Below are positions 2,504-28,590 of a stretch of DNA of 64,000 nucleotides, in pieces. Every line of letters starts with the position of its first letter. Position 1 is the first letter of the stretch. This stretch comes from Isoetes taiwanensis (Eukaryota > Streptophyta > Lycopodiopsida > Isoetales > Isoetaceae), in assembly GCA_021234155.1 (NCBI GenBank), contig JAJEKV010000028.1, forward strand, positions 13,716,134-13,780,133, read 5' to 3'. The notes beneath the pieces were generated by a model that searched no databases, was not told the origin of the DNA, and saw nothing but the letters and a program-made list of their open reading frames with translations. The translations under genes and the position numbers were made by a program.

Positions 2504-4041
2504 TAATCAGGCATTTAAAAATTAAAAAAATTCAAGTGAATATACATGGAGTACAATTATCCCAGCTAATGCCAAGCTTGGGCGAAATGAGAGGGTCTTT
2601 TAGTTGTACAACAAAATGCGCACGTTAAGTATTGCTATCCGCTGAGCTCTTCTTTGCTTTTTCTTGCACAAAGGTCTCTTCTGGTAACATGCTTTCTTTC
2701 GCAGATATCTTTTCAATAACTGAGAAAAAAGGTAGATTTTGCCCTTATCTTTGTTGCTATTTCTTAGAACACTTGCCTTAAGGTTATCATCTCTACGAAC
2801 TGCATGTATCCAGGTTGTACAAGTGGTGGAAATGTCGCCACTTAGATGGCATCCTATTATTCTGACCAAATGCCATTCCTGTTCTCTCTGGCCAGATTCT
2901 AAGTCCAGACTGTTATATGAGGAAAATGTACCATATATGGCTCATGCGCATTTGGAAACTGGAAGAGAATAACTCCACTAACTCCACAACTGAGAAATGA
3001 AATTATGCATAGACGTAAATGCACAATGCTGGCAACTTATGAAGGTATATCATGAAGACTTCTGAAGATTTCATATTGGACTAAAGAGGGTACTGTCCAG
3101 CAAGTACTGTCAAGAACTGAACAGGTTATCATTTAATTTTGCCCAGAAATGCTTCTTCCTTGCAAATTCGTCTTATTAGCAAATCAATTTGATCCAGTCT
3201 TACACGTTTTTTGAAGCTCCATTTCGAGATTAATCTACACGCTACTTTGCACCAAGGTTATGCCAGAATAACAGAAAACTAACACTCTGCCTTATTTAAT
3301 CTCTGGTTCTGCTTTAACCAAGAAACAGAAGATACCAATTTCCTGCTACTTAAACGGTGAAACTCTGATTCTTCTTTTTGAGTAATTATCGCAGATATTA
3401 TGCAACAAACTTCTAGGTTTTGAATGATAATCTGCATTTGCAGAATAGCTTGCATTAGCTTTTAGAAATCCAATGTACAAGGCCGAAATTATATGACTTC
3501 CATTTGCTTTTATGGAAACGGATCTGGTTGTTTCATGTCTGTCTATTCATGGCCACTAAATCGTTTTCCAAAGGGTGCATGTGGCATATGCACAAATTTA
3601 TTTGACTGTCCTACTTGCCAATGACCATCAGCAAGTTGATGATGCAAATTTATTTGCCTTCTATGCAGAAATCGGGAGAATGAAGCTTAAAATAGCAAAG
3701 GTGTGTATGGTCTTTGTTCTCTCAGATTGTATGAGTTTAGGTCATATAATGGGCTTTAGAGATTGCTCAAATTTATATCACTGTGATACAGCAAACATCA
3801 CCGCAAATATTGCAGATCAAGATCCTTCCTTGGCGATTCTCAGTCTAGAAGCCTACATGGTGTACCGCATTGTGCATATCGGAAGATGAATTATGCAATT
3901 ACGTATCTTCAATGTTGCTAAAGCAGGTCAGTAATTGGCCATGGCTAGATAATGCACTTAAGACAGCAGAAATCATGCAACAGCAGGGATGTCCTGTGCT
4001 ATGAGACTGCACAAAGGGACGAGACCTCGAACTTGGTAGAC

Positions 4042-4120
4042 AATTCCTGATAGTTTGCATTGGACTAGATTAAGTAAGCATCTTTGCTTTGTTTGCATCT
4101 TTGTAGAAATTTGGATGAAG
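4042..4120 (+). repeat. 79-bp dispersed direct repeat, copy 2
   Basis: Same orientation as 2426-2503, 1.6 kb downstream. Differences are single substitutions and a one-base indel in a T-run. Directly after it the phrase 'CTAGAGAGCTT' recurs several times up to 4315. Confidence 0.85.
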
Positions 4121-4794
4121 GTCCAAGATAGAGAGCTTCCTATCAGCTTAAGTTCCAAGCTAGAGAGCTTTTTGTTGCATTATGTGAGAAACCATGGGGC
4201 TTCTGCTAACAGGGAAAGGGACTCTTGGAAATTGAAGGTTTGTTGTTTAGTAGAAATGCCAAGGTCGTTTTCCATGGATGATCTGCTAAAATTCCAAGCT
4301 AGAGAGCTTCCTATTGCATCATCCTGATTTTATCCCCGGTAAACATCTTGCTTTTTTAAATCTGTCAATTGCTATTGTTGAATTATGGTCTGATCGAAGC
4401 ATTCCCCTAACTAATGCCTTTTTATTTCCATCTGAAAAGCTGTGTCCAACAAGTACCAAAGACAAAGTTATTGCAAACGCAAAGGCAAAGGTAATATGGC
4501 CAGTTCATCTGGTTGTTCCATGCACTAAGATTTATGTGTCTTTGTTAAAGAGCACTGTAAAGATACTTTGAGTTATCTTCTTCAGCACTTTAGAGATCTT
4601 TTAACCTTTTGTGTTGGACTAATATTTCTATTTATGCAATTATCAAAGTTTTTGCAGAATACATTTGGTCAAAAAGATTTGTTGGAATTTGTTTACAGTC
4701 TACTTAGCCATGTGAAACTATATTTTGACCACAAAACTTCAAGACCAGGAACTTTGCATGCGAGTTCAATATTTGTTGGTGTATAGCTGTCTAG

Positions 4795-4868
4795 ATTCTA
4801 TTCCTCTTTCAGCCAACCATCTCATTCATCTATTCTATTCCTCTTTCAGCCAACCATCTCATTCATCT
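4795..4868 (+). repeat. 37-bp tandem duplication
   Basis: Two adjacent copies of a unit beginning 'ATTCTATTCCTCTTTCAGCC', essentially identical, so the duplication is recent or recently homogenised. Confidence 0.9.
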
Positions 4869-18453: not shown

Positions 18454-20071
18454 GGGAGTGTGACGCCCCCAACATATAATGACCCTGACGATACATATTT
18501 GGACTTTCCTCCCATGGCGCACCAACTCACCATGAGCGTGGCCCTCGCCTCATATTCGGCCATCGATAATACGATGCCCGAAAAGAAGGACACCGGCGGG
18601 GTCATTCGCCCACGCCTTCAATGGGGCTCCTATGTCGCGAAGCGGAATACAAGGGTTAGCACACAAAGATAAATCACATATAAATAACCACCACGGCGGG
18701 GTGGCATATCCATCCAAATACCAACGCAAAAGAATATGCATCTAAGCCTAAGAAAACACCCCAAACCCATGGTTCTACCCCTGCTCGCATCTCAATGAGG
18801 ATCGATCGACGGCTAGGGCTCAAGAGATCAAAGATGTAATCTTGACATGGGCGCTATCGGGCATAAAACATTGGCTAGGGTTGTCCACTCCATCCGCCCT
18901 CCCGCGGCACACTTTGCAGATGGGTCAATTCACGCTATGGCGTCGCTTATAGCCTTCCAGGAGACGCAGGCTCGAGGCATCACCTCGGCCGAGCCTACTC
19001 CGTGGTTCATGAAGCCCCGTCCCGATGAGGCAGTCGGAAGCGCCCCTTCCGTAATCACAAGGCTCCATGGGCGAAGCTAGAGAATACGTGCCGCGATCAG
19101 CGACCCCCATCCGCACACTAATTTACTCACCCTAAATCTACTCAGTGCAAGGTGCCCCATAATGGGTCACACCTTCCCACCTGTGGAGTGTCGCACCCAT
19201 ACCCGCCCCTCTACGCGGACCCGCCATCGCCTAGCTCGCTATAGGAGTCCTGTGAGCCTTTATGTTCGTGCAAGACCCCACCTCCACTTCACCACCGTGT
19301 TCCTTTGTCCGGTGCTAAGCCAGCACCATAGCATCTATGACTCGGGTGGGCTCTTGTGCACAGCCGCATTTAACGGATATTACAGGGCTCTATCTAGGAG
19401 CATACTACAATAAATAGCCTCGCAGGTCTCTACCCCTTAATCCCCCATTTCCGAGTAACCCTAGGCTAACAACCACCAATCCATCCATTACAAGCGTAAC
19501 CAGAATCGAAATATATAGAGAGAACCTACCTTACAATCAAGGGTTAGTTCCCTCTGAGTAAAACACAAAGAGAGTAGACCAACAACCCAAACAAAGCCCA
19601 ACAGGGCTTTATCCTAGAATTCACATCTACACTAGCCACCCCACTGTTTTTGGCCGACCCATTGTCATTGGGAATCTCCATCTTCTTGATCTTGGTGTTC
19701 AACTTGTGTGAGAAGGGTGGCGAAGGTGGCTTCTCCGGGTCACAAGGGTGGCGCCACCGTCACAAGGGTGGCGCCCACCGCCAAGGTGAGTTGTGGTCGA
19801 TATGGGGTGGTGATCCACCCTATTGACCCCTATTAGCATTATCATGCTAGCCAATCGAGGGTGGCCACGTGGCGCCTTCCCAAACCATAATTAGCTTAAT
19901 TATGGTTTTTAAATATTAGTTCCTTAATTATAGGTTATTATTGTCAATAATTAAATTAGCCTTTTAAGTGAACCACCTAGGTTCCCATACCCCATGTGGC
20001 GTATGTATCCTTGGTGACGTGTCAACATATTTATACTTATACCGTATAAATACTTGGAACGTCACAGGGAG
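18454..20071. mobile_element. Solo LTR, 1608 bp, with GGGAG target duplication
   Basis: The LTR spans 18459-20066. It begins TGTGACGCCCCC and ends GGAACGTCACA, giving 7-bp perfect terminal inverted repeats TGTGACG/CGTCACA with the canonical TG..CA ends. It is flanked on both sides by GGGAG (18454-18458 and 20067-20071). There is no internal retrotransposon coding between copies and no second LTR, so it is a solo LTR left by recombination. The family (Ty1/copia or Ty3/gypsy) cannot be decided without an internal region. Confidence 0.85.
20046..20053 (+). promoter_or_regulatory. TATA-like sequence at the 3' end of the solo LTR
   Basis: TATAAATA lies 14 bp inside the LTR end, in a position where it could direct transcription into the ParB-like gene starting about 200 bp downstream. 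It is unusual for an LTR's own TATA box to be so close to the end, so chance is possible. Confidence 0.3.
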
Positions 20072-20249: not shown

Positions 20250-21692
20250 GTCCCCGCATGAGGAAGAAAACCGGGGGTCTCCTATCGCTAGTACTTCTGG
20301 GCAGGACAAGGACGAGCAACCCAAAAAAAACTTAGCAAGGTGCCAAGAGACACCATAGCCGCTAAGGAACCAAAAAGAGGAAAGTACAAAGCCTTTGAAA
20401 TAGTGGAGAGCTCCCCGAGGAAAGCACAAAAGAAAAGAAAGGGAAAAGGAAAAGCACCTTGGGTTGCAATAAAGGAAAAGAAACTTGATAAAACCTCCGA
20501 AAGATATATCTTTATGTAACTTGCATGAGGCTGCCCCCTAAAAATGAGGCTGGTGAACGGCCACTTCAGGTTCGAAAAATCTACGCAGATCACTTAAGGA
20601 ACCTGAAGGACAGAATAAGGAGCAATCCAAATGCTCATGTGGCCCCAATAGTTGTCCTTGTTGACAGGGAGCAGTGCACAACCCCCCAAGACTATGACAG
20701 GAAGAATGCAGATACCTATACACATTATGTCTTGGGAGGTAATCACAGCTTCAAAGCAAGAAGGCAACTCTACAAAGAGAAGAAGAACCCAAGGTACCTC
20801 TCCGCCCCTAGGTGTCCGCTTCGTGGTCTTACCGATGAAGAAGCAAAAATCGTTGCCAACACCCACAATGCTAACAACGAGTATAAATTGAAGATGAGCT
20901 TTGTCGATAAGATCAGGTTTATGCACATTTATCAGTTGTGATGTGTATTAAAGATCTACATAGAAAGACAAAGATTAATATGCAATATAATAAGGTAGTT
21001 CGATATGAGAAATTGGGGAGAAAAAAGAAGCAATGGAAATGGATTGGCCAGAAGATGCTAATGCTGTCAGTGAGGCACTTGCCAAAAATACGTTATTTTT
21101 AAGGAAAAATATGGTGAGGACCTTGAAGAAGCCAGCGCACTTTGAGTTTAAGAAGGCGTATGCCATTGAATGCCGCCTGAAATATGACGGCTAACAAAGG
21201 CGGCCACCATTGGCCACCTACAAACCGGTTCCAATTGGCTTTCAGAGATGGCAAGGTACGCACATTCCGTATTCTGGAATAATAAGTCGTGCTAATGTTT
21301 TGTTTAGATTTTTTGCGTCTGCCTCTGTACCATTCTCTTCCTACAAGTTCTTTTCTTTTTTCGATGGGAAATTTTTCTTTTCTTCTTGGAGAGAAAAGAA
21401 CAGAAAAGTTATTTCTATTTAATAGTTTGTGAAATGGTTTGGTAGGATATGTAACAGTAGGAAGTGTTGCAGTTAAGGCTGATCTTGTAATCCATATTTC
21501 CATTGGTAAGTAGTATTCAGGTTACTTATCTTATGAAGATTCAATTTTAATCTTATATTCATGTGGTTATGCAGTATCTAGCTTGCATGCTAGATTGTTT
21601 GCAAAGGATTTGAACATCACAAATGGAACGTATGGTGACTGGATGAAGTTGAGACTTGGATTTGTCACTACAAAGGTTCTTCTCGGTAATTA
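20250..21692 (+). CDS. ParB/Srx-fold-like protein gene, frame-broken or multi-exon
   Basis: Open segments in three frames read as one protein. First comes a Ser/Glu-rich segment ('GSPIASTSGQDKDEQPKK'), then a Lys-rich, nuclear-localisation-like segment ending near 20519 ('RKAQKKRKGKGKAPW'). The main ORF 20525-20941 follows: 'APIVVLVDREQ' (strand), 'HYVLGGNHSFKARRQLYKE' (the GNH motif typical of ParB/sulfiredoxin-fold domains, followed by a helix), and 'LTDEEAKIVANTHN'. Later pieces are 21033-21194 (53 codons, 'MDWPEDANAVSEAL') and an exon-like piece at about 21574-21692 after a TATGCAG acceptor ('SLHARLFAKDLNITNGTY'). ParB/Srx domains bind or cleave DNA or nucleotides. The activity here is unknown. 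The first two frame changes could be indel errors; the gaps further down could be introns. A methyltransferase gene lies 4 kb away on the other strand. Confidence 0.55.
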
Positions 21693-22104
21693 GTAAAGAT
21701 TGCTTGCCAATTAGAACCATTGATATTGGCAAGCGTTATATTTTCGAAATAAAATCATTGTTGTTGGTGGTGATCTTCCACGTCAAACCTCCGCCTTCCA
21801 CAAAAGTGTATATGGATAATGGATCCCTTTTTTAATTCCCACCATATTCTAAATAGGCAGAGCATATTATCTGCATCGCATAACCACCAATAATTAAAAA
21901 CTATAGTCGGTTATATGCTAAGCAATACATTCAAATATCTAATGCGTTGGACAACAAAGCCTATGACTATGGCATAAAGATGTTGAAAAACAAAATAATG
22001 TCAACTTAATGCACTAAACATTAAAGGCTTTGGGGCATTGGTTTATGATGTTTATCACGTCAAGAACCATTTAAATTTACAACAATGTCGCCATGGCAAT
22101 CTAG

Positions 22105-22500
22105 CCCTTTAAGGACGATTGAAATAACACCATAGAAACCAAGCCTTATTACCGCATTGTTATACCACATTCTGAAGCATTATCATAAACTATACTTATT
22201 AAACATGCTAGAAAACCACCTTGTTGAAGACCATTGAAATATCGCATGCACAAACCTACCACTAAGCAATTTAACCCTTTAAGGACTGCATCAAAGTAAC
22301 ACCATAAAACTAAGTCTTATTACCGCAGTGTTATACCACACCTTGAAACACTATAACCAACCATACTTACTAAACATGCAAGAAAACCACCTTGTTGAAT
22401 ACCATTGAAATACTCCATGCACAAACCATACCCATACCATACCCATGAAGCACTGCATTAAACTACACCTACTAAACATGTTATAAAACCACCGGAGTGG
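22105..22500 (+). repeat. Tandem repeat, about 170 bp, 2.2 copies
   Basis: 'CCCTTTAAGGAC' starts units at 22105 and 22275, each continuing through 'TTATTACCGCA', 'GTTATACCACA' and 'AAACCACCTTGTTGAA'. A third partial copy runs to about 22500. Units are diverged. Confidence 0.75.
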
Positions 22501-22614
22501 ACCTCATATGCTAGTCAACTTCATAAACACTTGAAGAAAAATACAAACTTTAACCATATATGGTTTTTAATGAAATTAACCCCCAAAGACGTATTGGTTT
22601 TATTGACTAGTTTT

Positions 22615-23363
22615 TCATATATAACCAAGGAAGAAACCCATATCGGTTTTATTTTTGGGTGCCTTGTGTGAGGGAAGCCTTGGCTGGCGGGATGATGAAA
22701 CTAGCAGCACCCTAGTTTTGGCCAAGTTAACTCGCATGCCAGTGAATCGGCAAAAAGTGTCAAGAGCATCCAGTGACGCTGCATATCCTCCGAGTATAGG
22801 CCGAGGTTGACATCGCAAGATCTATGAGTTGTCGATTGTGTGATGCATGAGATGGGCTTCGCACCTCCATGCTCGAGAGCCAATCTTCCAGCTTGGTCAA
22901 TGTACAGCCAAAGAGTGTGGGGAGATGGGGCAACCCCGACGCACTCCAATACTACTAACATTATCGTCATGGACGATGTGTGATACTACCGAAAGCATGC
23001 CTCTCAGATAGCCTATATATTGCATTCTCGCAAGTCAAGTACCCACCGCCGCGAACCTATCCCATAGCCCGTCAGCGGCATCGGGTCAAAAACTTTTGTA
23101 AAATCCACGAAACAACAGTACAGGTTTTGTCGGCGATTCCTGCTATGCTCAATCAATGTGCGCAGAGTGAAGATATGATCAATGGTGGAATGCCTGGGCT
23201 GGAAACCCCGCCTGCGGTAAGAGCTCGCGACATCCGCCTCCTCTCGCCCATATTGTCGCCATCGCCAAGGATGCCACCAACGCTTTTGCAAAGAGAGAGT
23301 CGACCATAATAGTACACTAGTTGGCTGGGCATTGAGGGTCCCCTGCCTTGTATATGAGCACAA
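22615..23363 (-). pseudogene. LINE reverse transcriptase fragments
   Basis: 23013-23363 carries 'RRRGFQPRHSTIDHIFTLR' and 'LYCCFVDFTKVFDPMP' (finger region and motif A with its catalytic Asp). 22701-22970 carries 'SPHTLWLYIDQ', the degenerate motif B. 22615-22818 carries 'DALDTFCRFTGMRVNLAKT', the segment that follows the DD motif in LINEs. Frameshifts separate all three pieces and the DD motif itself is not intact in one frame. Confidence 0.85.
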
Positions 23364-24409
23364 CTCTACTAGTGGTCCACTGCGGAGGGAAGCCTTCTTG
23401 CAATGCTTTATTGAACAATGCCATGAGGACAGGCACCAGTGGAGGCCCAGCCCATTTCAGAAGTTCCGCCGATGCGATCTAAATCACCGCCTTCCCATTA
23501 GCTAGACGCTGTAGGCTCATGATGACATCCCCCTCTCTGATGACCGTGAGCCATGCCTATCTCAGGAGGGACTGGTGTCCGCCCCCAAGCTGGTCGTAGA
23601 AGCCAAGCAGGCACTGCACTCCATTGCCCCAGGTGATGTTCCCCTCGGGGGTCGCGGCGCCTTGCTCAAGACCCTCTCCGTAATGTCTTGGAGTGCCAAT
23701 CCGTGAGACCAAACATCTCATGTCGATGCTCATGAGGTATCCGCTTTTTTGTTCTTAAGAAAGGAGTAGAATTGACCGATGGCCCGGCGGGCTGGAGGTG
23801 GGATCGCGACTTGCCGTAGTGTGCATTTGAGCTACCAACACTCATCATCGAACCATCCGCTATGGGGGAAGGTGGTAGTGCCCGAGGTTCGCCGTGAGCC
23901 GCCTCTCCCAAAGCATCTCTCGCCAAACCGCCGAAGGTGTGAGTCACCGAAAGCGCATCGCTTCTGAAGTGTGGGGAGTTGCGCAGCCCCGCCAGTCATG
24001 CTCAAGAAGCCGGGCATAGGTCCCCCGCGACGGTTGTAGTCCAGCGCACTGGGCACCCGGGTGTGTTGAGGCAGTAGATGCACGGGGAGCCTGCCAATGG
24101 AGATGCATGAACAGGGGCTGGTGGTCCGAGTCCACTTCCTCGTCCCGAGTGTCCGTTCCAATGGAAAAATAGGTGCTCCTCAACCAACAGATAATCCACC
24201 ACACTGGAGCCGCTCCCTTGGTTCTCCCCGCCTACAAGTGCAAAGAGCTTGGAAGATGGCCATTGTGCCAACACATTACAAATAACCAGGTCAAAGATAC
24301 TACCCAGCAACAACAACTGCCTGCCATAGCGTGAAATATGGCCGCTGCCCGATATCCTTGACCAAGCCACCTCTGCGGGTTCAACCGCAAGACGCCCTCT
24401 GCCGGGGGC

Positions 24410-24733
24410 TCAAATTTTGAACCTCGCCGCTCCCATCGGCGCATTAAAGTCGCTGGCAACATAAACTTGCCCAACCGCTTGTGCGTGGATGTTATCATAT
24501 AGATCGACATAGGGCTCCAATCTATCCACATCCCAATGAGTGTTATAAAAAGCTGTTTCGGCATGTGGAAAGTAGCACGCCGCTATGAAGAGAATGTCGC
24601 CATCGCCATGCCGCACGCCATCCATAAGTAGCGACAGTGCCTCGCCGCTTTTGTGCAACGAGACCGAGTGCCTCTCAAGGTCGCGACGATAGTAGCGTGC
24701 AACCCCGCTTATGCCCTCGCTTGCTGCACTCAT
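24410..24733 (-). pseudogene. LINE endonuclease domain fragment
   Basis: Contains 'ILFIAACYFPHAETAFYN' and 'GQVYVASDFNAPMGA'. The latter is the DFN motif of the exonuclease/endonuclease/phosphatase fold, whose Asp and Asn are catalytic. The surrounding order of hydrophobic strands fits plant LINE endonucleases. The next segment (24002-24370, 'SVVDYLLVEEHLF') continues it in another frame. Confidence 0.8.
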
Positions 24734-25497
24734 TGAACACCGAAATGCGATAGCCTAGGAGGTTCTAAGGTATGCGGGTTCTCGCGATGTTCCCATGTTT
24801 CCATGAGGAAAATGAGATCCATATCCGGTGCAATAGAGTTGAGACTCTCCCCTTTACGCTAAGGGAAGCCCGGCAGCCTCAAGACACATCCGAGGCACAG
24901 TTCCTAATTTGATGTGGACGCCGATGATCTGCTTTGCCGGTAAGGCAGCAGGCGGCACCGGCAAGTTGCGAAGGCAGGAGCGCTTGGAGCAGCGAGCAGG
25001 AGGTCACGGTAGGGTACCGGTGGCGGTAGAGTGGCAAAGCAGCTTGACGCGATTGTATCGGGTGACCTCAGCAGCGCCGCCTAAAATGCACAGCTTGCCT
25101 CTACCCGTGCCAGAAGGCACCCCGGCTGACGCATCGCCCCGGACTTGAGCCAGGCCGCCGCGGCGGGACTCCTGTTGCGGAAAGTTAGATCCCGATCGAC
25201 ATACGTAGTAGTCCCTTCAATTGCCTACTCGACGAGATGGCCTCACGCACTCGCATGTGCGCCATCGTGAAGGTGACAACGTGCGAAGCGATGGTGGCGT
25301 TGGAGCCCCAAGGCGTTTGCTCGAGCAATGACGGTGCAATCAGAAGTCTGAAATGCCATTCGAGATAGGATCTTCTCCCCGATGTGCTTGGTGAGATCTT
25401 CTCCCGCCTCCTCGAGAGTCCACGCACCACCACATTATGACGCCGGGCGGCTCGCCTCTTTCGCCAACCGAAGTCAGCGGGCAAAGAAGGCTATATC

Positions 25498-27834
25498 TCA
25501 GGTCGCCGCCTTTAGCATAATCGATGAAGACTTGGCCCCTAACTCTTGATTTTCATCCCAGTAGGTAAGGCAGCCAATCTCATCCTCACAAAATTCATAG
25601 CCTCCTTTGTCAATGTCCAAGGCTACACGCTTGGGCCCTTCTTAACTCGCACAAGCAATAGTAGTACTGTAACTGCAAAAGCATCAGCACCCAATCTCCT
25701 CGGACGGAGAACATGTCCGTGAGATGGTTGATGAGCTTTTGTGGTTTTTGATAGTGATTTACAATCCCGCTTGTGCACTTGGGTCCCTCATTTCAGAGGA
25801 CCGCCGAAACTCTAGGACGCTTTGAAAAATTTTGGCAAAAGCGACATGCTGTTGAAGTGCTCCATGGTTCTCTTCGTCCAAAACTCCAAGAAGCAACATG
25901 AAGGTACTCCACTTTGTTGAAAGCAACCTTGTTCTTCCATCATGATAATTGATGTTTGTTTTGTAACGTAGTAAACTATTTGAAGTGAAGTTAGCAAAAC
26001 AAGAAAACAGCTCAAAAACTAGAACCAAAGTAATCCTATTCCGTATCACGAAACGAATTGAAGAGGTTAGCAACTGTATTCTGGAATAAGACTTACCAGA
26101 CCAAGTTTTCATACCCTGCTTGAACTGGAGAACCGAATTGGTTTTTAAAAGTGGATTCTACCAAGCCAGCCTGCATGCTAGAATGGAACACAACTAGAAG
26201 CCAATGCTTGGCCATTGTGATTCGCTTTGATGCCATCAATGAATGCATTGAACTCGAAAATTTGAAGGGCTGGTCGTCATAGCGCTATCTTTTAGTTTAA
26301 AGCCATAGGGAAGGTCTGCAAGAACCAAAGTAAAGTCATGTGGCTTAACCGTTCTGACTAGTTTCGTGCAATTGCCATGAATGATCGAAAACAGGTTGTT
26401 TTGATCAAACATGCAAAATCTTTCATGGTCAGAAGGTTCTGCATCAATTGTCCTTCTTTTCAGCTAACCACTGCCTTCCCGTAGTAGTTCTCACCAAGTG
26501 CATCAAGCCCCTGAAGGTCTTTGTTCATTTTCTTGCTCGTAAGAGAAAACAAAACTATAATTGTTAACATATCGCAGTTAAGAGGAAACAAAACGAAAGC
26601 GGACTTATAACTCAGCCCTCAAAATTTGGGGCATATTGTACAATGCGCCGTCCGGAGGTGGCAATAGGGTAGAGCTCTTTGCACCCTCGCCCCATGTTTC
26701 AACGCTTAGTCGCTCCATCAAATATGTTTGACATGTTATAATGTTCTTTTTTCGGGTCCGCAAGACATTAAAGAAACACTGTGTTAGGAAGTAAGTGAAA
26801 CAAAACAAGACCCAAGAAAAAACAATTACGCAAGTAAAAGTAAGTTATATTCGAATACAAAACCGATTTATGGTGTTGCTATCTTGAAAAGAAATATGTC
26901 GCCTGTGAAATGATTTTGTATTCCAGAATACTGTTTTTATTTGTCGAATGAGTGAGTGTCTGTTCTAAGACACAAATTTTAAGTTTTTAAAGCTTTTTCT
27001 ACTCGAAGACACTATTGTGTATTCTGGAATACACATTGCTTGTCTACAAGAAAGCATGTGTATTCCGGAATACACAGTCTACATCGATGCTACTAGACTA
27101 ACAACAGCCAAATAGCTAATCTTATCAGAGGACTTACTTATGCAATTCCTTGGACATTTCTTCAAGGCTGAACTCCTCGTCGACAACCTTTTGGAGCAGC
27201 CGCTCTAGTAGCTCTGTGTCGGAGAAGCATTTCCCCCGTGCACGTAATAGTCATTTCTTTTTTTTACGCCCGAGGTTTTCTTCTTGGCTGTCTCCTTGTC
27301 TTTGCTCTCCAACTCCGCATGTTCGAACATAGTAAATATTTCATCTTGGAGTTCCCATATCTGTTCAAGAAAAGTTTACATCACTTCGTGGACTAGTAAA
27401 ATGGTATGGCATGATCCGGTGCAAATACTGAACCGATGAAGGGGATTTGGACCCCACTTGTTCCAAGACCTCATGAAGAGTTGAACCACATCTATTCCGT
27501 AATATCCTTGAAGAACAAGAAACAGTTTCAAACGCATTCCAAAACAAGGTCCAAAAGAAACCAAGTTAATGAGCTCCGCAAGTGTAAACTGTCATGAATA
27601 AAATGAAGAAACAACAAATAACATCTGTTGGTTGAGAAAATGCAGCAGAAAAGACATATCTTTTGCTGAGATGAAAGCGGGCTGACACGCATGAAGCCGT
27701 AACCTTCACCATGGCCATCGCCTCCGCCTTCGCCATCGCCAACCGCACTATTCTCCGCACGCCGAAGCTCTAAACCTAAAACCGCAAGGGTTAAGTTAGG
27801 GCTTACCGAAGTTCTCGTACACAACCCTAGCCAT
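25498..27834 (-). CDS. Beta-class DNA amino-methyltransferase-like gene (multi-exon)
   Basis: Minus-strand exons run from an ATG at 27834. 27807-27834 is followed by a 31-bp GT-AG intron, then a Gly/Asp/Glu-rich exon from 27775. Helical exons follow at 27380-27530 ('STLHEVLEQVGSKSPSS') and 27132-27360 ('ELQDEIFTMFEHAE', 'LLERLLQKVVDEEFSLEEMS'), then short exons near 26.6-26.75 and 26.5 kb. The exon 26097-26439 contains 'SIIHGNCTKLVR' and 'FTLVLADLPYGF' (motif IV, DPPY type), then 'AKHWLLVVFHSSMQ'. A last region to the stop at 25498 contains 'NKVEYLHVASWSF', 'NHYQKPQKLINHLTDMFS' (motif X), a broken motif I around 25660-25685 and 'VALDIDKGGYEF'-like residues. The order IV-X-I is that of beta-class N6-adenine/N4-cytosine methyltransferases. 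A frameshift at about 26285, a TGA at 25793-25795 and shifts in motif I interrupt it; two of these fall at CAG/CTG sites where consensus errors seem common here. Confidence 0.65.
27016..27076. repeat. Two 20-bp palindromes of the GTATTCYRGAATAC type
   Basis: 27057-27076 is a perfect palindrome, TGTGTATTCCGGAATACACA. 27016-27035 is the same sequence with CTGG at the centre. Shorter copies occur at 26918-26931, about 26076 and 21269. They fall in introns or flanks of the methyltransferase and ParB-like genes. Confidence 0.7.
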
Positions 27835-28590
27835 GCCGCAGCAGTTAGGTGGAAAAGAGAGAGATGAATATTGTTTACATATTACAAGAAATTTATCAAG
27901 GCGCGGCCTTTTTCGAATTTCTCTATCTTTAGATGAATAGTTGTTAAAGAGGAATACTGGTCGAAACTCACTTACTGGTTTTGTGCCAGCTGAAAGAACA
28001 TACGTATAGACATTTATTTTAATGGTATGACCAATAGATGTCCTCAACCTGTAGTGCTAAATGTCTAAGCTTGGAGGATTTGAATCACAAAATCAATGAA
28101 TTATGAACCATTAAGTTGAGAGACATTACCAACTGATTTAATGAAAAATAAACAAAGAGTGAGCATCGCTTACTCGGAATCTGCCACGTCATCATGCTGC
28201 ATAACAGACAGCTTTGCATCTTTTCTGCAGCTTTGAAGATTTTTAAAGAAATGGTAGCTTTGAAAACTGGCTACGGCAGAAGGATGTCTCAGAGCAATTT
28301 CGGCCAAAGATTTCTCCCCTGCATGATTTTGTCAGAATAGCCATTCCGGCAAGATGGCGATGGCTTCATGCTAGAATAGAGCAAGAGCTCCCAACGCTTC
28401 CAAGGGTTTTACAGTAACACAGATACTTATCAGGTAAATCAGATATCAGATAAATCAGTGTATTATGGTGTATGTATGGCTACTCATATCCACTAAATAA
28501 GCACGTCCATACATGAAGTATTCAGATAACTAGGAAGTATTCCTAGATACTGTCCTAAAATTTCTATTATAGATTAAACAAACAACTGTA

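Follow-up and report, generated by a model that had tools for sequence, protein, structure and literature searches.

The locus holds two halves of one fused gene

We analysed a 64,000-nucleotide stretch of the genome of the quillwort Isoetes taiwanensis (the window; G000:C1032:13716134-13780133), against a searched genome of 1,658,258,908 bases in 1110 contigs. The window contains the remains of a DNA transposon that carries, in addition to a transposase-like gene, a multi-exon gene joining a ParB-like part to a predicted DNA amino-methyltransferase. The original prediction had placed two neighbouring genes at this locus, a plus-strand ParB-like gene facing a minus-strand amino-methyltransferase-like gene across a long interspersed nuclear element (LINE).

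The frames underlying that prediction are present. On the plus strand, an open frame at 20424..20941 represents a remnant of exon 1 of the fused gene and encodes its ParB-like domain, including GGNHSFKARRQL at 20735-20770. By blastn it aligns to other copies of the element at 88% identity over 20516-20927 and 80% over 20424-20500. Approximately 150 bp of intervening sequence separates this piece from the remainder of exon 1 (plus strand, 21089..21288; blastn 80-81% identity to other copies), which ends in a splice donor read directly as GGCAAG/GTACGC, with the GT at 21256, comparable with the donors of other copies. On the minus strand, 25511..27383 aligns with element copies in reverse order (blastn 73-80%, together with tblastn high-scoring segment pairs) and corresponds to the inverted 3′ half of the gene, interrupted by four stops in its methyltransferase part. 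It comprises exon 2 (27363-27140), followed by intron 2, and an exon carrying methyltransferase motif IV (from about 26487), followed by intron 3. The predicted peptide ADLPYGF is found in the frame 26236-26463, and QKPQKLINHL in the frame 25610-25792, the exon after intron 3. The stretch between the halves (minus strand, 22615..25490) holds degenerate open frames that we judged by eye to be LINE-like, as predicted, and foreign to the transposon. A reverse-transcriptase-like stretch was also seen by eye among these frames.

Judged by alignment with the other copies, the two ‘genes’ of the window are the two halves of one fused gene, and their convergent layout is the result of an inversion of its 3′ half. 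The proposed neighbouring pair is therefore not a pair, given that the same-strand order is found at 46 of 150 listed ParB places (see below). The suggestion that rearrangement concealed an originally tighter arrangement was correct as to the rearrangement, the arrangement itself being a single gene. A copy on contig C936 has the same convergent layout, and its ParB exon is 95% identical to that of the window, so the inversion probably predates the duplication that gave rise to the two. The ratio of nonsynonymous to synonymous substitution rates (dN/dS; obtained throughout by a counting method and given where dS was estimable, as dS was saturated in many pairs) comes to 0.72 (ParB part) and 0.77 (methyltransferase part) between these two copies. 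These values, together with the four stops, show that the window copy is decaying as a pseudogene, almost neutrally. At E 1e-8 the window gave no match to the transposase, and a tolerant search for element ends in it was likewise negative. In this copy of a high-copy DNA transposon, now dead and inverted internally, the transposase and the ends are gone.

The window and its C936 duplicate (L006) also differ in a segment of about 1.6 kb, 18456-20067, which is present in the window and missing from the duplicate. Identity on its two sides is 97% and 95%, and the difference reflects either a later insertion in the window or a deletion in the C936 copy.

The parent element is a high-copy DNA transposon

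Genome searches with the window ParB exon (20492-20938), the window methyltransferase exon (26236-26463) and the methyltransferase profile PF01555 each returned at least 150 places, with 2983, 1709 and 1444 rough first-look candidates, respectively. A PF01555 place lies 0.5-5 kb downstream on the same strand at 46 of the 150 listed ParB places, and in 42 of these 46 pairs the distance is 1.8-2.4 kb; among the matches listed, each of the other three strand and side classes is empty. DUF7869 is found 1.5-8 kb upstream on the opposite strand at 21 of the 150 listed ParB places and at none in the other three classes. For PF01555 relative to DUF7869, the expected class holds 20 of 150 and the others 1, 0 and 1, again among the matches listed. 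All these fractions are minimum values, and neither of the two convergent copies, that of the window and that of C936, is among the listed PF01555 places.

Pairwise comparison of two whole copies, C920 and C1058, delimited units of 8202 and 8274 bp. The terminal inverted repeats are imperfect, about 25 bp long and start with AACA; on the left the sequence is AACAAAGTTGCGTATTAAACGGGAG or AACAAGATTGCG..., and on the right, in reverse, AACACGATTGCAAATTAAACGGGAG. Identical 4-bp flanks are located exactly at the inverted ends in all nine copies with both ends, compared with no flank matches at shifts of 1-3 in the same nine copies. A 28-bp flanking repeat at C920 was considered as a long target duplication and rejected, since all nine copies, C920 included, show 4 bp. 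Whole copies contain two divergent genes, the multi-exon ParB-methyltransferase fusion and a transposase-like gene on the minus strand that matches DUF7869 (PF25273) with an E-value of 1.5e-51 in copy L029; in profile searches this part matched PF25273 only. The family is a dispersed, high-copy, cut-and-paste-type DNA transposon.

At least three families can be distinguished: F1, F2 (L037 and L038) and F3 (L041, L042 and the truncated L040). Relative to copy L030, the ParB part is 48-49% identical in F2 and 54% identical in F3 (L041), and the DUF7869 part shows 53-60% identity between families. L037 and L038 had been picked as DUF7869-only controls, and both turned out to carry the ParB-methyltransferase gene. 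L039, which has no palindromic sites, was likewise considered, together with L040, as a control lacking ParB, neither having a detectable ParB or methyltransferase part; this use was rejected because both are parts of the family with both genes (L041 and L042).

With introns in both and some 5 kb between them, the window halves could pass for two independent host genes of ParB/sulfiredoxin and amino-methyltransferase type domesticated tail to tail. In the dispersed copies, by contrast, both parts belong to a single gene, read from one strand, within an element bounded by inverted ends and target duplications. The window copy moreover shows nearly neutral decay, and we consider an origin from two host genes hardly credible. 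A domesticated gene pair was accordingly rejected on copy number and element structure, and the same observations, with at least 150 dispersed places per search, leave the suggested domesticated modification system unsupported. The other suggestion of the original prediction, the remains of a selfish element, agrees with the high dispersed copy number, the inverted ends and the target duplications.

The fused gene encodes predicted ParB-like and methyltransferase parts

In intact orientation the fused gene has at least four coding exons. Joining those of copy L030 across introns with GT-AG borders and phases 0, 2 and 2 gave a frame of 662 amino acids with no internal stop and zero base edits; this fusion is a splice prediction. 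L030 lacks the 5′ part of exon 1, a frame that in copy L004 stays open for 511 amino acids. Junctions of the L030 type can be made out in other copies; in some of them a splice site is mutated, for instance before exon 2 in L004 and before exon 3 in L029. The introns that the original prediction had seen in both genes correspond to GT-AG junctions in the element copies.

The window exons alone matched no Pfam methyltransferase or ParB profile and only weakly a PHROG methyltransferase (E 0.036), so the window exon does not pass the profile check that the original prediction had set for itself. The amino-methyltransferase match that had been anticipated appears in the better-preserved genomic copies of these exons (PF01555, E 1e-17 to 1e-18), and the methyltransferase part of the fused gene matches PF01555 at E 1.3e-18 and phrog_67 at E 1.2e-27. 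Exon 3 carries motif IV as AD(I/L)PYGF in six of six aligned copies from the three families, and exon 4 carries motif I as DAFSGSGTT in five of five copies. The motif IV exon precedes the motif I exon, which is the predicted beta-class order. Motif IV of amino-methyltransferases is canonically (D/N/S)PP(Y/F/W); in all six copies the second position is I or L in place of the first P of the canonical PP, and D, P and Y are kept.

Among solved structures the best match to the methyltransferase part is the adenine enzyme CcrM (6pbd, E 1.1e-11), with N4-cytosine enzymes ranking lower. The chain of 8s9m, a ‘DNA cytosine-N4 methyltransferase’ that we take to be the bdelloid enzyme, scored E 0.057, far below CcrM. 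This ranking leans towards N6-adenine methylation without deciding the matter. The N4-cytosine methyltransferases of liverworts and bdelloids, to which the original prediction pointed, are likewise eukaryotic amino-methyltransferases; they are host enzymes and not a transposon family.

Evidence for a ParB-like domain in exon 1 is weak but consistent. TIGR03764 (ParB) was the sole NCBIfam match in three of four copies, with E-values of 1.1e-4, 1.8e-4 and 8.4e-3 and scores far below the curated cut-off; the fourth copy gave none. Weak tblastn matches (E 0.3-7, query residues 82-204) fell on ParB-type genes in 15 of 15 records, comprising 3 phage and 12 plasmid sequences, several of them close relatives of each other; 14 are annotated as ParB-like or RepB and one as ‘DNA binding protein’. 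Profile comparison with ParB gave E-values of 3.3e-6 and 2.5e-5, compared with 0.25 for a methyltransferase control, although four of the tblastn-picked records served to build the ParB profile, which makes it dependent evidence. These weak scores point one way, towards a ParB-like domain, through TIGR03764 and not through PF02195 (see below).

The accessory gene may plausibly have come from a prokaryote or a virus. Viral ParB-methyltransferase fusions of phage type exist: the IMG/VR locus L054 combines PF02195 and PF01555, and shares with the plant gene the order of a ParB-type followed by a beta-class methyltransferase part in one frame. In L054 this frame runs uninterrupted for 456 amino acids, and its 43% identity with the plant protein is confined to 61 residues. 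The copies could on this basis be amplified insertions of a giant virus or another virus carrying such a gene. However, each unit spans about 8.2 kb, is bounded by precise ends and 4-bp duplications, and has a DUF7869 gene; a close viral relative was not found. Two ParB scans of viral contigs returned no relative, and a scan with exon 4 yielded 43 loci with distant methyltransferases (frames examined for 15 of the 43) that match mainly over the motif I region, the best at 53% over only 72 residues. We therefore regard viral insertions as very improbable. A scan of genome contigs with methyltransferase exon 4 returned no relative.

Family-specific palindromes lie outside the exons

In all three families examined, 14-bp palindromes of the form GTAT-core-ATAC occur outside the exons. 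The GTAT...ATAC arms are constant, and the core is TCCGGA in F1, GAATTC in F2 and AAATTT in F3. The whole F1 copies have 16 and 17 GTATTC-NN-GAATAC sites at up to two mismatches, compared with 0.25 expected from first-order shuffles. At up to one mismatch the flanks of C920 and C1058 hold no sites, except for seven to the right of C920 that come after another partial element end. F2 has 9-10 sites of GTATGAATTCATAC and close variants (L037 and L038), and F3 has 21 exact sites of GTATAAATTTATAC in L041 and 36 in L042. Genome-wide, the F1 18-mer GTGTATTCCGGAATACAC occurs exactly 2585 times and the F3 18-mer CGGTATAAATTTATACCG 4415 times; the F2 18-mer AGTGTATGAATTCATACT was found at 26 places, which undercounts F2 because only one flank type was used. 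Reversed but not complemented controls of the three 18-mers gave no occurrence.

Across the gene span of six copies, where protein-matching stretches cover 38-63%, 117 of 119 sites fall outside these stretches, the 5′ part of exon 1 being counted as non-coding in this tally. The other two, in copy A, belong to intron 3, which is covered there by a match running through it. One site, at L004:3197, falls inside the open 5′ frame of exon 1. Sites recur in introns 1, 2 and 3 of F1 and introns 1 and 3 of L041, and also occupy the intergenic region upstream of the transposase gene.

Many F1 sites are 41-42 bp apart, about four helical turns. Neighbour distances of 15-130 bp concentrate around whole helical turns in these two larger samples: a period of 10.5 bp gave R values of 0.79 in F1 (n=65) and 0.57 in F3 (n=59), statistics that count related, non-independent copies.

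The window retains three exact sites and two with one mismatch, all within the element remnant. Two exact palindromes GTATTCNNGAATAC start at 27019 (core TG) and 27060 (core CG) in intron 2 (27019..27073), 41 bp apart; a third, with core CA, is at 26918..26931 in the same intron. The one-mismatch sites are at 26076..26089 in intron 3 and at 21269..21282 in intron 1, just past the exon-1 donor. A two-mismatch site at 28537 lies outside the remnant, and 2.65 are expected by chance at this tolerance.

Several further features of the sites were observed. Among the F1 cores, for example at L001:4968-5232, the variants CCGG, CTGG and CCAG have the look of a CCGG core losing its CpG, which host 5-methylcytosine at the core cytosine would be expected to cause. 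Some F1 palindromes reach 22-34 bp, perfect or nearly so, through outer arms that differ yet remain complementary (L029:5517-5800 and L002:7092-7370). When these outer arms were considered as RNA hairpins, F2 and F3 showed no consistent signal and F1 had two site subtypes, in a comparison that mixed F1 loci of both orientations. Between the two genes of L042 (L042:5653-6155, contig C960), F3 palindromes form a dense series with most spacings at 28-33 bp, longer than the one in L041.

Low dN/dS between subfamilies

Between subfamilies, dN/dS is 0.02-0.04 for the ParB part, excluding the window copy, and 0.02-0.10 for exon 4 of the methyltransferase. The transposase gave 0.05-0.17 in pairs with L029 or L030 and 0.29-0.50 in other pairs with dS of at least 0.4; the latter mostly involve L002, in which the two transposase parts contain 6 and 9 stops. 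Closely related copies gave 0.17-0.65 in the methyltransferase and 0.18-0.80 in the transposase. ParB ratios of 0.05-0.08 were obtained for close copies picked by ParB similarity, and these low values are biased because most F1 copies were picked in this way; L037 and L038, picked by transposase match, gave 0.32.

A candidate system of self-recognition

Overall, the explanation that we consider probable is that the window holds an inverted, dead copy of a transposon whose ParB-methyltransferase fusion is predicted to bind and mark the element itself. ParB proteins typically bind palindromic sites, and the palindromes are good candidate sites for the ParB part, which would let the element mark itself. 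Arms that stay fixed and a core that changes as the proteins diverge give the look of a bound site under co-evolution. Palindromic, centromere-like sites near a ParB-like gene are present, as in ParABS, and the ParB-like part is their predicted binder. The ParB-like part would bind the palindromes of its own family and, once bound, direct the methyltransferase to the element's own DNA. Methylation of this DNA would mark the element or shield it from silencing, or would autoregulate the element's genes. In its most specific form, in which each family has a private system that reads its own palindromes, set along a single helix face, and adds N6-methyladenine (6mA) or N4-methylcytosine (4mC) to its own DNA, we put this forward tentatively, as possible but short of probable. 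If true, it would constitute a eukaryotic counterpart of parS/ParB coupled to a methyltransferase, in which the specificities of site and protein shift together as families split.

Several observations weigh against the probable explanation given above, in addition to the sub-threshold TIGR03764 scores, the dependent ParB profile, the related copies in the spacing statistics and the selection bias noted above. PF02195 (ParB_N) matched none of the copies scanned, PDB profile searches with the ParB-like part returned no ParB, and a single-sequence structure prediction of the window ParB exon alone reached a predicted local distance difference test score (pLDDT) of 40 and was unusable. Motif IV reads DIPY or DLPY instead of the usual DPPY. 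The spacing signal of F2 is weak (n=12) and varies with the period chosen. No copy shown to be intact throughout was found among those examined, so present activity is unsupported. Finally, both element proteins diverge together with the core, so the DUF7869 protein could be the binder instead.

This last point underlies the main rival, in which the palindromes are sites of the DUF7869 transposase, acting as an internal enhancer or in repression, and the ParB-methyltransferase acts elsewhere or without them. Transposase binding keeps this standing for two reasons: the transposase diverges in step with the palindrome core (its DUF7869 part being 53-60% identical between families), and the truncated L040, in 9.9 kb with no detectable ParB or methyltransferase, still has five sites and the transposase. 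It would also suit the sites that lie upstream of the transposase gene in the intergenic region. Against it, ParB proteins are the typical binders of such palindromes, many sites are internal and not subterminal, and they recur in the ParB-methyltransferase introns listed above. On balance, we judge transposase binding unlikely, though a serious competitor to binding by the ParB-like part.

A host factor could also bind the palindromes. The F1 core holds TTCCGGAA, resembling paired half-elements for heat-shock factor (consensus TTCnnGAA), and binding of this factor would result in stress-induced expression. F2 and F3 keep the GTAT...ATAC arms without TTCnnGAA, however, their cores being GAATTC and AAATTT. 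A heat-shock element was rejected as the identity of the palindrome on these differing cores, and binding by a host factor of this kind appears improbable.

Relation to known elements

Whether 6mA and 4mC serve as purposeful marks in land plants is debated. The quillwort element provides a concrete, high-copy source of amino-methyltransferases in a plant, with predicted target sites, and makes the question testable on native long reads. Annotating exons of this kind as host methyltransferase or ParB genes would be wrong.

The closest described counterpart is Sola1-1_Ec32 of Ectocarpus, which carries on the strand opposite its transposase an accessory gene for a 1104-aa protein with ParB-like and N4/N6 methyltransferase parts (PMC12477816). 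The quillwort element resembles it in the ParB-methyltransferase product and in the position of the gene within a DNA transposon, opposite in strand to the transposase; it differs in size (about 8.2 kb compared with 21.5 kb), and comprises at least three families in a vascular plant, the likeness being drawn from the published description. The same paper already suggests that ParB-methyltransferase proteins may bind and modify their own element, and cites similar proteins in transposons of green and red algae (Iyer et al. 2011; Petroll et al. 2025, Bostrychia). Its account of Sola1-1_Ec32 makes no mention of palindromes of the family-specific kind found here.

At its ends, with their inverted repeats and 4-bp target duplication, the quillwort element agrees with a Sola1 element described from S. 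rosetta, which has repeats of 32 bp and likewise a 4-bp duplication (PMC6875170). Transposons that bring their own DNA-modification enzyme are also described in fungi, where TET/JBP-carrying elements (KDZ and others) bring 5-methylcytosine oxidation, in contrast to the predicted amino-methylation of the quillwort element (PMC12730594). The 8-bp target duplication given there for Zisupton differs from the 4 bp of the quillwort element, which thus lacks this feature of KDZ/Zisupton.

In the PMC literature searched, no paper names DUF7869 and no report of a land-plant ParB-methyltransferase transposon was found. The quillwort element is a further case of the algal-type ParB-methyltransferase transposon, and extends this kind of accessory gene from algae, in the literature found, to a vascular plant. 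What is new are the family-specific GTAT-core-ATAC palindromes as candidate target sites. Candidate cis sites that diverge with the protein offer a natural experiment on transposon self-marking.

Observations on individual copies

Copy L029 (contig C976) is flanked by open frames that by eye resemble a pentatricopeptide-repeat gene (L029:813-1439 and L029:9499-9900), and may have inserted into such a gene. The copy on contig C1060 (L003) contains a 631-bp tandem duplication with 99% identity between its units, covering the end of the ParB part and the start of exon 2 (positions 3545-4806 in the reverse complement of L003).

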